From a bacterium (GTDB lineage: Bacteria > CG2-30-53-67 > CG2-30-70-394): DNA of 8,432 nt. The DNA lies in contig JAJRSX010000013.1 of the NCBI GenBank assembly GCA_024278555.1, forward strand, positions 1 through 8,432, in the 5' to 3' direction. Positions 1,281 through 8,432 of the stretch are shown one piece after another. The notes beneath the pieces were generated by a model that did not search any database, was not told where the DNA came from, and was given only the letters and a program-made list of their open reading frames with translations. The position numbers and the translations under genes were made by a program. Position 1 is the stretch's first letter. The number at the start of each line of letters is the position of its first letter.

Positions 1281-1669
1281 GCCACGGGCGGCTCGGTGAA
1301 GGGGAGGGCCGCGGGCCGTCAAACAGCCTCGACACCTTTACCAATCCGCACCCGGAGCGGGACTACGACATCGAGCTGGTCTGCCCCGAGTTCACCTGCC
1401 TCTGTCCGGTGACCGGCCAGCCCGACTTCGCCACCTTCACCATCCGCTATGTGCCCGACGCCACCTGCGTCGAGTTGAAGTCGCTGAAGCTCTACCTCTG
1501 GTCGTTTCGCGACCAGGGCGCCTTTCACGAGGCGGTCACCAACCAGGTCCTCGACGACCTGGTGGCGGCGGTGGCCCCACGGCGCATGGAGGTGGTGGCG
1601 GACTTCAACGTCCGCGGCGGGATTCACACGGTGGTGACGGCGCGCTACGCGCGCGGGGGTGGGGAATGA
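1277..1669 (+). CDS. queF: NADPH-dependent 7-cyano-7-deazaguanine (preQ0) reductase
   Basis: QueF reduces the nitrile of preQ0 to the aminomethyl group of preQ1, a step in making queuosine for tRNA wobble bases. The product is a short, single-domain (YkvM-like) form of 130 residues. The segment [17 protein letters not shown] (about 36-52) holds the catalytic cysteine, Cys43, and the acid Asp50. [13 protein letters not shown] (about 66-78) is the QueF signature, and FHE (83-85) and NVRGGI (111-116) are also conserved. The GTG at 1277 is preferred because it overlaps the trxB-frame TGA as GTGA and has a GGCGGAGG-like site just upstream. The N-terminus is shorter than in Bacillus QueF and its first 17 or so residues are Gly-rich, so the start is less certain than the identity. 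The last codons lie in an inverted repeat arm. Confidence 0.93.
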
Positions 1670-1686
1670 GGGATGAGGGATGGGGG
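1655..1686 (+). repeat. G-rich repeat copy 1, with G-quadruplex pattern
   Basis: Five runs of three or more G (1655-1659, 1661-1664, 1670-1672, 1677-1679, 1682-1686) are separated by loops of 1, 5, 4 and 2 nt, which fits the canonical quadruplex pattern. The unit GATGAGGGATG is shared with the copy near 8315. The queF stop codon, 1667-1669, lies inside it. Confidence 0.65.
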
Positions 1687-1691
1687 CAGGA

Positions 1692-1706
1692 CGGCCCTGC
1701 GGGCCG
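1692..1706. repeat. Small perfect hairpin
   Basis: CGGCCC at 1692-1697 pairs with GGGCCG at 1701-1706 around a TGC loop. It lies 22 nt after the queF stop. No T-run follows on the + strand, so termination is doubtful. Confidence 0.45.
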
Positions 1707-1743
1707 AATGAGATGACGATGGAAGCCACCCACGAAAATTATC

Positions 1744-1760
1744 TGGCCGCACAGCGGCCA
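1744..1760. repeat. Small perfect hairpin in the dedA leader
   Basis: TGGCCGC at 1744-1750 pairs with GCGGCCA at 1754-1760 around an ACA loop. On the - strand it is followed by GATAATTTTC, a weak T-tract, but no - strand gene lies upstream of it within reach. On the + strand no T-run follows. Confidence 0.45.
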
Positions 1761-1766
1761 ACCATT

Positions 1767-1798
1767 CCCCCATCCCCCACCCCCCATCTCCCACCCCC
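1767..1798 (-). repeat. G-rich repeat copy 2 on the - strand
   Basis: C-runs at 1767-1771, 1774-1778, 1780-1785, 1790-1792 and 1794-1798 give five G-runs on the - strand with short loops, again a quadruplex pattern. It is the inverted partner of copy 1 and lies in the leader of dedA. Confidence 0.6.
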
Positions 1799-1820
1799 GC
1801 GAGCGTAGCGAGCTTCCCCC

Positions 1821-4063: not shown

Positions 4064-6030
4064 TTTGTGCCTACCCCTATGCGCTCGTTCTTTTCCTTGT
4101 ACTTGGCCGGAAGCTCGAACGGCATCAGTGCGTTTTGGATTTCATACCGATCCGCATTCGGCATCGACTCCTTGATCTTTTTGATTTCCTCCACGCGGGC
4201 CGCGGTGTCCGGATGGTGGATCGTGTTGTCCGTTCCATACCCGCGGAAGCCCGGCGGGAGCTCCATCTTCTTGATATCGAGGGGCTGGTAGTCGATCTCC
4301 GGCTCTTCGTCCGTCTCGTTCCGCCAGTAGGCCAGGGTCCGTTTGAGCCAGTCTCGATCGTTGCGTTCCGGGTAGTCCTCACGGGTGTGGGCGCCGCGGC
4401 TCTCGGTACGCAGGAGCGCCCCCTTGGTCACCGTAATCGCCAGCTTCAACATCCGCTGGACCCGCAGGGCATCCACCAACTCCGGATTCGATGAGCGGAT
4501 GCGGTTGTGCAGGCCGATGTTCTTGCTACGCCGCAGGAGCTCTTTGAGCTCGTCGAATGCCTCTTGCAGCTTGTCTCCGGTTCGGAAGATACCGACCTTC
4601 TCCATCAGTATCTTCTGCATCGCAGACCTGATCTCATAGACATTCTCGCCGCTTGGACGTGCAACCAGTTCATCGATCCGGGCCCGCTCACGATTCATGA
4701 TGTCGGCGATCACGTGGGTCGAGATCTCCACGTCGGACTTCTCACAGTAGTCGGCGACATACTCCCCAACGATCATCCCGGAGACGACCGTCTCGGCGAC
4801 CGAGTTGCCCCCGAGGCGGTTGAAGCCGTGGAGGTCCCAACAGGCCGCCTCACCCACGGCGAAGAGGCCGCGGAGGCCGATGCTCTCGCCCGTGTAGTTG
4901 GTGCATACCCCGCCCATGGAGTAGTGCTGGGTGGGGCGCACGGGGATGTAGTCGGTGACCGGATCGATACCGAGGAAGCTCCTACAGATCTCCGTCACCT
5001 CACGCAGGTTTTTCTCGATGTGCTCCTTGCCGAGGATCGTGATATCGAGCCACAGGTGGTCCCCGTACGGCGACGGCACCCCCTTGCCCTTGCGCATGTG
5101 CTCGGTCATCCGGCGCGAGACCACGTCGCGACTGGCGAGTTCCTTCTTCTCCGGCTCGTAGTCGGGCATGAAGCGGTAGCCGTCGACGTCACGCAGGACG
5201 CCGCCGTCACCCCGACACCCCTCGGTCATCAAGATGCCGGCGGGCACGATCGCGGTCGGATGGAACTGCACCGCCTCCATGTTGCCCAGGGGCGCCTTGC
5301 CGGTCTCCAGGGTAATGGCGGCCCCCATCCCCTCGACAATGACCGCGTTGGTGGTGACCCCGTACATCCGGCCGTAGCCGCCGGTGGCGATGGTGGTCGC
5401 CTTCGCCACATAGGCGACCAGCTCGCCGGTGACCAGGTTCCGCACGATCGCGCCGTTGCACCGGTCCCCTTCGTGAATCAGCGCCACCGCCTCCATGCGC
5501 TCGTGGATCGGAATGTCGAGCTCGATCGCCTTGTTGTCCATGGCGTAGAGCATGGTGTGGCCGACGCCATCGGAGGTGTAGCAGGTACGCCACTTCTTCG
5601 TGCCACCGAAATCACGGGCCATGATCAGGCCGTGCGCCTCCTCCTTTTCGTGGATGGTGACCCGCTGCGCGTTGATCACCACCTCGTGGTCGCCGCCGCG
5701 CACCCGGCTCCACGGCACCCCCCAAGCGGCGAGCTCGCGCACCGCCTTGGGGGCCACATGGGTAAACATCCGGGCGACGGCCTGGTCACACCCCCAGTCG
5801 GACCCCTTGATGGTGTCCGCGAAGTGGACATCCTCGTTGTCGCCTTCGCCCTTCACCGCCGCCCCGAGACTCGCCTGCATACCGCCCTGGGCGGCGGCGG
5901 AGTGGGAACGTTTTGCCGGAATGAGCGACAAGATCAGGGTGTCGAGCCCACGCATCTTGCTCGCAACCGCGACACGAAGGCCGGCCAACCCGGCTCCAAT
6001 TACGAGAGAATCGGTATATACGACTTTCAT
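4060..6030 (-). CDS. frdA: Fumarate reductase/succinate dehydrogenase flavoprotein subunit
   Basis: This is the catalytic subunit, interconverting fumarate and succinate at a covalently bound FAD. The 656-residue protein closely matches Wolinella FrdA in length and sequence. The FAD motif VIGAGLAG is at about 10-17. His43 in [11 protein letters not shown] is the residue that binds FAD covalently. His257 (QFHPT), Arg301 ([11 protein letters not shown]), His369 (QHYSMGG) and Arg405 (HGFNRLGG) correspond to known substrate-site residues; Arg301 corresponds to the catalytic proton donor. The C-terminus [13 protein letters not shown] is also family-typical. The gene begins 5 nt after frdC stops; a GAGG inside the last frdC codons can serve as its ribosome site. 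Its TGA overlaps the frdB ATG by 4 nt, so all three genes should be co-translated. Confidence 0.97.
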
Positions 6031-7752: not shown

Positions 7753-8352
7753 TCATAAAGGCGCCTTGAGGCGCGCCACCACCCAGCGGATCGCCGCCGC
7801 CAGATCGTCGAAGACCGCCTCCGCGTCGCCGCCCTGCCGCTCGGTCTCGACACCGTAGCCGGTGCGCACCAGGAGGGGGGTCGCTCCCACGCCGCGGGCG
7901 AGGTCGAGGTCCACCCCCTTGTCGCCGACGACGAAGGAGCGGGCGAGGTCGAGGGCGAGATCAATGGCCGCCTGCCTCGCCATTCCCGGCGCCGGCTTGC
8001 GGCAGCCGCACCCCGCATCCGGCGCATGGGGGCAGTGGTAGAGGCCGTCGAGGTGGGCTCCCTCGGCGGCGAGGAGCGCCTCGACCCGCCGGTTCACTGC
8101 CTGCAGATCCGCCTCGCCGAAGTAGCCCCGGCCGATCCCCGACTGGTTGGAGACGAGCGCCACCGGCACGCCGGCACGATTCGCCTCACGGATGGCCGCC
8201 GCCACGCCGGGGATGAGGGCCACCCCCTCCGGGTCGGCGAGGTAGTTGCGCTCCTCGATGAGGGTGCCGTCACGGTCGATCAACAGGCCGGGGCGGGGCG
8301 CGCCGGCCGCGCCCGGGGGTGGGGGATGAGGGATGGAGCGAGCTTCGCCCAC
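7753..8352 (-). CDS. gmhB: D-glycero-D-manno-heptose 1,7-bisphosphate 7-phosphatase (start uncertain)
   Basis: GmhB is a HAD-superfamily phosphatase that removes the 7-phosphate from heptose bisphosphate on the way to ADP-heptose for the LPS core. With the GTG at 8352 the product has 199 residues. HAD motif I is DRDGT with Asp26 and Asp28, motif II SNQSG at 68-72, motif III Lys119 in CRKPAPGM, and motif IV VGDKGVD with Asp144. The zinc loop typical of GmhB is present: Cys107, His109, Cys115 and Cys117. Related histidinol-phosphate phosphatases share this loop, so the exact substrate is inferred. The first 20 or so residues (SIPHPPPPG region) are encoded by the G/C-rich repeat, longer than usual before motif I, and no ribosome site is visible. 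The frame stays open into the poly-C end, so the true start is unresolved. Confidence 0.85.
   Translation of the reverse strand: MGEARSIPHPPPPGAAGAPRPGLLIDRDGTLIEERNYLADPEGVALIPGVAAAIREANRAGVPVALVSNQSGIGRGYFGEADLQAVNRRVEALLAAEGAHLDGLYHCPHAPDAGCGCRKPAPGMARQAAIDLALDLARSFVVGDKGVDLDLARGVGATPLLVRTGYGVETERQGGDAEAVFDDLAAAIRWVVARLKAPL
8315..8336. repeat. G-rich repeat copy 3 inside the 5' end of gmhB
   Basis: Starting at 8315, 20 of 21 positions match copy 1 starting at 1655: a G5-T-G4 block followed by ATGAGGGATG. It is followed by GGAGCGAGCTTCGCCC, resembling the GCGAGCTTCCCCC that ends the element before dedA. A further fragment, GGGATGAGGGGGTGG, lies at 8354-8368. Confidence 0.65.
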
Positions 8353-8377
8353 CGGGATGAGGGGGTGGACGTCCCTT

Positions 8378-8432
<55 letters not shown>

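Follow-up and report, generated by a model that had tools for sequence, protein, structure and literature searches.

A multi-copy palindromic repeat of operon spacers with co-varying tandem-array arms, found between queF and dedA in a CG2-30-53-67 bacterium

Among the systems closest to the repeat reported here are the G-rich heptamers GGGNATC and GGGGA(C/T)T of Xanthomonas and Nostoc, which Rehm et al. (2015; PMC4692102) described without an assigned role and which form 70-75 inverted pairs per genome in Xanthomonas. Together with the cyanobacterial STRR repeats, they share with our element 7-nt G-rich units dispersed in intergenic DNA, mostly between aligned ORFs and rarely between divergent ones, with the G-strand in sense right after a stop codon and in antisense right before a start codon. 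REP, BIME and REPIN repeats (GTAG and CGTC types; Di Nocera et al. 2013, PMC3733652) have in common with it two adjoining short GC hairpins, copy numbers in the hundreds per genome, and placement between unidirectional or convergent genes near 3' ends; in Anabaena and Halothiobacillus, REP dimers occur within longer palindromes (PMC3733652). MITEs are likewise non-coding and gene-adjacent, 70-300 bp long (174 bp here), with terminal inverted repeats (47-nt arms here) and a strong RNA fold. Arm homogenisation and spacer inversion link the element to template-switch quasipalindromes (Abraham and Hazkani-Covo 2021, PMC8604942; Monttinen and Loytynoja 2022, PMC8794818), and intergenic G/C-run repeats, sometimes in inverted pairs, are also a property of the TMECO/PIT intrastrand triplex repeats (Holder et al. 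2015, PMC4666352), which differ in being a 34-37-nt three-segment motif without strand bias. The family that we describe joins heptamer-type arms, a REP-like dimer and a start-codon tail; a literal literature search with its tail and array sequences returned no paper.

The window, the whole 8,432-nt stretch of DNA analysed, is contig C144 of a 3.06-Mb genome in 211 contigs. Between queF and dedA, an inverted repeat spans 1640-1813 (174 nt) and encloses two small hairpins. An earlier note on this DNA had described a composite inverted repeat with outer arms matching at 20 of 22 positions, five G-runs in each and two perfect hairpins between them, and all of this is in the sequence: 1643-1664 is identical to the reverse complement of 1789-1810 at 20/22 positions, the left arm carries GGGGG, GGGG, GGG, GGG and GGGGG, and the right arm has five such runs on the opposite strand. 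The borders given then, 1643-1810, are slightly too narrow, since the full 47-nt arms (1640-1686 and 1767-1813) are complementary at 40 of 47 positions in the arm alignment. Folded as RNA, 1643-1810 reaches -110.3 kcal/mol (z = -10.65), which none of 200 shuffled sequences equalled. This fold and the recurrence of the sequence throughout the genome place the palindrome beyond chance, and the folded RNA that the earlier note envisaged is borne out as a strong predicted hairpin, which might end the queF mRNA or control dedA. No Rfam family matched the window above its gathering cut-off.

Read along the forward strand, the repeat opens with the outermost left stem segment GCGCGCTACGCGCGC (1640-1654), which holds the last native or first element codons of queF and pairs with the tail at 1799-1813. 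An array of ~7-nt G-rich units follows (GGGGGTG GGGAATG AGGGATG AGGGATG GGGG, 1655-1686); it contains the queF stop codon TGA (1667-1669) and is the part of the left arm that covaries within copies with the right arm. The repeat core (1688-1760, on a profile of ~77 nt) has two hairpins on either side of a conserved middle, GATGACGATGGAAGCCACCCACGAAA. Hairpin 1 (CGGCCC-TGC-GGGCCG, 1692-1706) shows G-C/A-U exchange elsewhere in the family, and in place of hairpin 2 (TGGCCGC-ACA-GCGGCCA, 1744-1760) other copies may carry a second type, CCGGCC-GCA-GGCCGG. Complementary to the left array in the arm alignment is the C-rich array CCCCCATCCCCCACCCCCCATCTCCCACCCCC (1767-1798), and with it the 7-nt tandem units with G3-4 runs that characterise the heptamers are present at both 1655-1686 and 1767-1798. 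The tail module GCGAGCGTAGCGAGC (1799-1813) comes next, and then a linker TTCCCCC ending at the dedA ATG (together 1814-1823, the ATG at 1821-1823), with no Shine-Dalgarno 4-mer. The element thus fills 1670-1813 of the 151-nt queF-dedA spacer and supplies nearly all of the dedA leader, as had been proposed. The companion claim, that it provides the last nine queF codons, holds in part: the frame from 1643 (CGC TAC GCG CGC GGG GGT GGG GAA TGA) comprises eight sense codons and the stop, and part of this stretch is probably native QueF, because RY is present there in the congener too. At the other end of the window (8310-8432, the contig end), a second G-run array (GGGGGTGGGGGATGAGGGATGG...) lies ahead of a gmhB-like gene start, and the terminal C-run of the contig after this start region is probably an assembly artefact; palindromes of the G-run-array type may break contigs of this assembly.

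To establish the family, we combined a DNA search of the source genome with an iterated profile search, which yielded the ~77-nt core, and with a covariance model based on 22 copies. The DNA search gave 91 matches, the best other copies being 75-85% identical, and the covariance model (E <= 0.01) gave at least 123 matches in the source genome and 26 in the congener G001; since the matches include some double ones on both strands and scoring covered 150 candidates, we take ~110 loci as a lower bound, with copy counts drawn from searches and sampled stretches rather than from one whole-genome layout. The search for further copies that the earlier note called for therefore disposed of the idea that the sequence is present once, and its suggestion of an extragenic palindromic repeat proved right, with multiple copies found at gene ends and just before start codons. 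Across 60 genomes, DNA matches were confined to the source genome and its congener, and the covariance model found no match in six genomes of the same class. In core sense, a copy reads as an array of purine-rich 7-8-nt units, the core (hairpin 1, GGACGGCCCTGCGGGCCG; conserved middle, GATGACGATGGAAGCCACCCACGAAAC; either of two types of hairpin 2), a complementary pyrimidine-rich array and often GCGAGCNNAGCGAGC. Unit types vary, from the 7-nt units of the window to 8-nt TAGGGAGA-type or GTAGAAAG-type units elsewhere. Both core hairpins are kept across copies with G-C to A-U exchanges; covariation in the core is modest, its score being reached by 6 of 500 shuffles, and core pairs changed on both sides are not in excess (210/500 shuffles as high). 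The copies are old and diverged. A second family, of GTAG-REPIN type (GGTAGGAGGGGGTTGTACCCCCGATC...), was seen inserted within the cores of this element or directly beside them (L088, reverse strand near 4924; L097 near 4600-4810; L007 near 298; L008 near 1620).

The distribution of copies among genes is strongly non-uniform. Gene borders were taken from our own codon-usage caller, trained on the long ORFs of the sample, rather than from annotation. As for the heptamers, placement is mainly between aligned genes, with 59 of 64 placed copies between codirectional genes, 5 between convergent ones and none between divergent ones. The background is a 370-kb sample from hit-bearing contigs, in which the density of copies is biased upward and orientation should not be; its spacers of at least 100 nt divide into 88 codirectional, 18 convergent and 35 divergent, of which 23, 2 and 1, respectively, hold the core. 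Within the 59 codirectional spacers, the core is in sense in 50 (85%; binomial p = 5e-8), an orientation to which replication-strand bias could contribute. Median distances are 45 nt from the upstream stop to the core and 78 nt from the core to the downstream start, in spacers with a median of 211 nt.

The arms behave as a pair within each copy. For 50 copies, the summed duplex energy of each left arm with its own right arm was better than in all 20,000 of 20,000 permutations of partners (z about -4), with a mean of -50.5 kcal/mol for own pairs and -46.2 kcal/mol for permuted ones; the same test in the congener alone, with 12 copies, was non-significant. The number of TAGGG units also correlates between left and right arms (rho = 0.50, p = 2.5e-4). 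A G-quadruplex pattern, by the heptamer measure of at least four G-tracts, is present in the queF-dedA copy and in 40 of 71 left arms in sense (45 of 71 right arms in antisense), leaving ~44% of sense arms without it, and in the copy at L101:12891-12964 both flanking arms are GTAGAAAG-type arrays that lack G-runs and are yet mutually complementary. Because of these counts and this copy, we regard G-runs as common in the family and not required. The quadruplex-type arms by which the earlier note characterised the element are thus not a constant defining feature and were rejected as such; what persists instead is arm-arm complementarity.

To compare orthologous sites, we located both flanks of 18 copies in the congener, and the element or a remnant of it is recognisable in both species at about half of them. 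In the congener, the queF-dedA spacer retains G-run and C-run arms in decayed form, with a tail-like CGAAGCGAAC ahead of the ATG, a diverged element and not plain spacer, and some six other sites (28, 33, 36, 42, 55 and 66) are empty there. The core lies in opposite orientations in the two species at sites 61 (E = 2e-8) and 56 (L068, a match of the covariance model); signs of inversion are weaker at sites 11 and 34, and at sites 8, 9 and 68 the core points the same way in both. At sites 8, 34, 56 and 61, left and right arms both differ between the species, and at all four the summed pairing within species exceeds that across species. Arms that are alike within a locus and a spacer inverted between relatives are what the quasipalindrome papers report from single sites; here an entire repeat family shows them, across arms of differing unit types. 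Core inversion could alternatively reflect independent insertion into the same spacer. No target-site duplication was visible at these sites, where divergence of the flanks from the congener and variability of the outer borders prevent one from being defined.

The tail GCGAGCNNAGCGAGC has 73 copies in the genome, whereas its reversed control is present once, and 46 of these 73 lie 0-10 nt ahead of an ATG. In the sample, a Shine-Dalgarno 4-mer precedes none of 14 genes with the tail before their start and 160 of 298 others (Fisher p = 3e-5), a difference to be expected in part, as the tail takes up the position of that site. The predicted fold brings stop and start to a median distance of 16, compared with 20 in shuffled sequences (p = 0.006) and 21 in element-free spacers (p = 0.03); in the queF-dedA copy, it brings them no closer than in controls. 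Juxtaposition of stop and start by folding, weak across the family and absent in this copy, was accordingly set aside as an explanation.

Set against the described systems, the family departs from each in specific ways. Relative to the Xanthomonas and Nostoc heptamers, nearly all copies are inverted pairs around a conserved two-hairpin core, GCGAGCNNAGCGAGC often stands before the ATG, the arms covary, G-runs are dispensable and the core can be inverted; the lineage is also different. The core hairpins are palindromes of the REP kind, 20-40 bp in many extragenic copies, in at least ~110 loci. Their stems are 6-7 bp rather than 8-9, however, and we found no unpaired terminal GTAG and no valid CGTC (AGGA precedes hairpin 1, AACC follows hairpin 2, and an antisense CGTC overlaps the stem); the arms are variable tandem arrays and not a fixed palindrome, and there is no associated RAYT. 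In MITEs the ends are fixed-sequence transposase-binding sites, whereas here they are arrays, and no partner transposase with the ends of the element was found among the Y1 transposases, the family searched. The genome has four Y1_Tnp (RAYT/TIRYT-like) genes (L045, L046, L047 and L048), each with its own flanking inverted repeat (e.g., GGGGTCAGGTCTTG and AAAAGGGGACAGGACCCTTTT); these repeats are unrelated to the element, and RAYT mobilisation is accordingly not supported. The earlier designation "MITE-like" is therefore half supported: the long inverted arms and the sites empty in the congener agree with it, but no target duplication was visible and none of the Y1 transposases has the same ends.

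A similar architecture appears in other phyla. Tail and C-run arrays are present in Terriglobia/Bryobacteraceae and Frateuria, where the core model gave no convincing match (one, E = 0.007) and ATG codons are not preceded by the tail more often than expected; the likeness is consequently one of architecture rather than of demonstrated homology. Near 4600-4800 of L126 (Frateuria), a stop, a G-rich array, a short unrelated core, a C-rich array, GCGAGCNNAGCGAGC and an ATG follow one another in the order of the window. In two acidobacterial MAGs (G060 and G062; e.g., G060:C16:2914-2962), GCGAGCNNAGCGAGC often forms an inverted pair ~32-34 nt apart, and such pairs in Bryobacteraceae/Terriglobia genomes are a separate hairpin repeat.

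The palindrome has spread through the operon spacers of the source genome and its congener. We propose, with moderate confidence, that it is a dispersed composite palindrome between cistrons, in which template switching keeps the arms alike, and that it acts as an mRNA hairpin. Template switching homogenises inverted arms and inverts the stretch between them (PMC8604942), and it creates and maintains RNA stems and hairpins (PMC8794818); switching between the inverted arms during replication would be the main keeper of their complementarity and would account at once for alike arms and core inversion. Selection for pairing may add to it, and mutational homogenisation and such selection predict an identical arm pattern. 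That the core is so predominantly in sense, and that placed copies are missing from divergent spacers, suggests that the element matters at the level of the transcript, and a transcript-level role for REPs has been argued on like grounds (PMC3733652). Co-transcribed with its operon, the element would fold into a long hairpin between two reading frames, which, by analogy with operon REP/BIME hairpins, may shield the upstream mRNA segment at its 3' end or define where that end falls, and which may partly uncouple the downstream cistron, whose start would lie at the foot of the stem without an ordinary Shine-Dalgarno site.

Other readings account for parts of these data. A purely selfish MITE- or REP-like miniature element, moved by a transposase and found wherever and in whichever orientation insertion was tolerated, would explain the multiple copies, the inverted arms and the roughly six sites empty in the congener; absence from divergent spacers is expected if insertion into promoters is harmful, and the nested GTAG-type insertions demonstrate that these spacers do receive mobile repeats. 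We nevertheless consider this reading rather unlikely, given the lack of a visible target duplication, the unrelated repeats around all four Y1 transposase genes and the age and divergence of the copies, and given that tolerance alone leaves the sense core in 50 of 59 codirectional spacers unexplained. That the element is a transcription terminator or attenuator between queF and dedA appears improbable: a strong hairpin does stand directly after the queF stop and no placed copy is in a divergent spacer (0/64), but no U-tract follows the stem (GCGAGCTTCCCCCATG; stem followed by TTCCCCCATG), dedA starts 8 nt past it, and in the sample the core is present in 2 of 18 convergent spacers, where terminators usually reside, against 23 of 88 codirectional ones.

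Still less probable, in our estimation, is a G-quadruplex regulator in which the G-rich arm folds in RNA or DNA to control neighbouring genes. The five G-runs per arm at queF-dedA, the pattern in 40/71 sense left and 45/71 antisense right arms, and the in vitro quadruplex folding of the related Xanthomonas and Nostoc heptamers (PMC4692102) are in keeping with it; the ~44% of sense arms without the pattern, the copy with GTAGAAAG-type arms, and the retention of arm complementarity instead, in a duplex that competes with a quadruplex, speak against it. We also give little credence to a translational bridge, in which a rod-like stem joins the upstream stop to the downstream start, allowing ribosomes to re-initiate where no Shine-Dalgarno site is present. 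It would fit the tail 0-10 nt before ATG in 46/73 copies, the contrast of 0/14 with 160/298 in Shine-Dalgarno 4-mers (p = 3e-5), the restriction to codirectional genes and arms that pair whatever their sequence; on the other hand, the predicted stop-start distance is just slightly under that of shuffled or element-free spacers, and the tail fills the stretch before the start, so the absence of the Shine-Dalgarno site is partly built in. A related speculation, to which we assign a very low probability, is an operon connector, an mRNA rod of arbitrary sequence whose foot links the stop to a start without a Shine-Dalgarno site via GCGAGCNNAGCGAGC and which template switching preserves during drift; if true, it would be a new portable translation-coupling device.

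The palindrome between queF and dedA is thus genuine and belongs to a multi-copy repeat found in operon spacers, with sites that differ between sister species. No role is known for the inverted G-rich heptamers already described in Xanthomonas and cyanobacteria, and this family offers three handles on them: a core in sense in 85% of operon spacers, arms that change together, and a tail that replaces the Shine-Dalgarno site. These handles make it testable whether such repeats serve as mRNA devices or are selfish palindromes whose perfection is owed to replication errors. The orthologous pairs, too, provide a natural series, with differences in arms and in core orientation at a single site.
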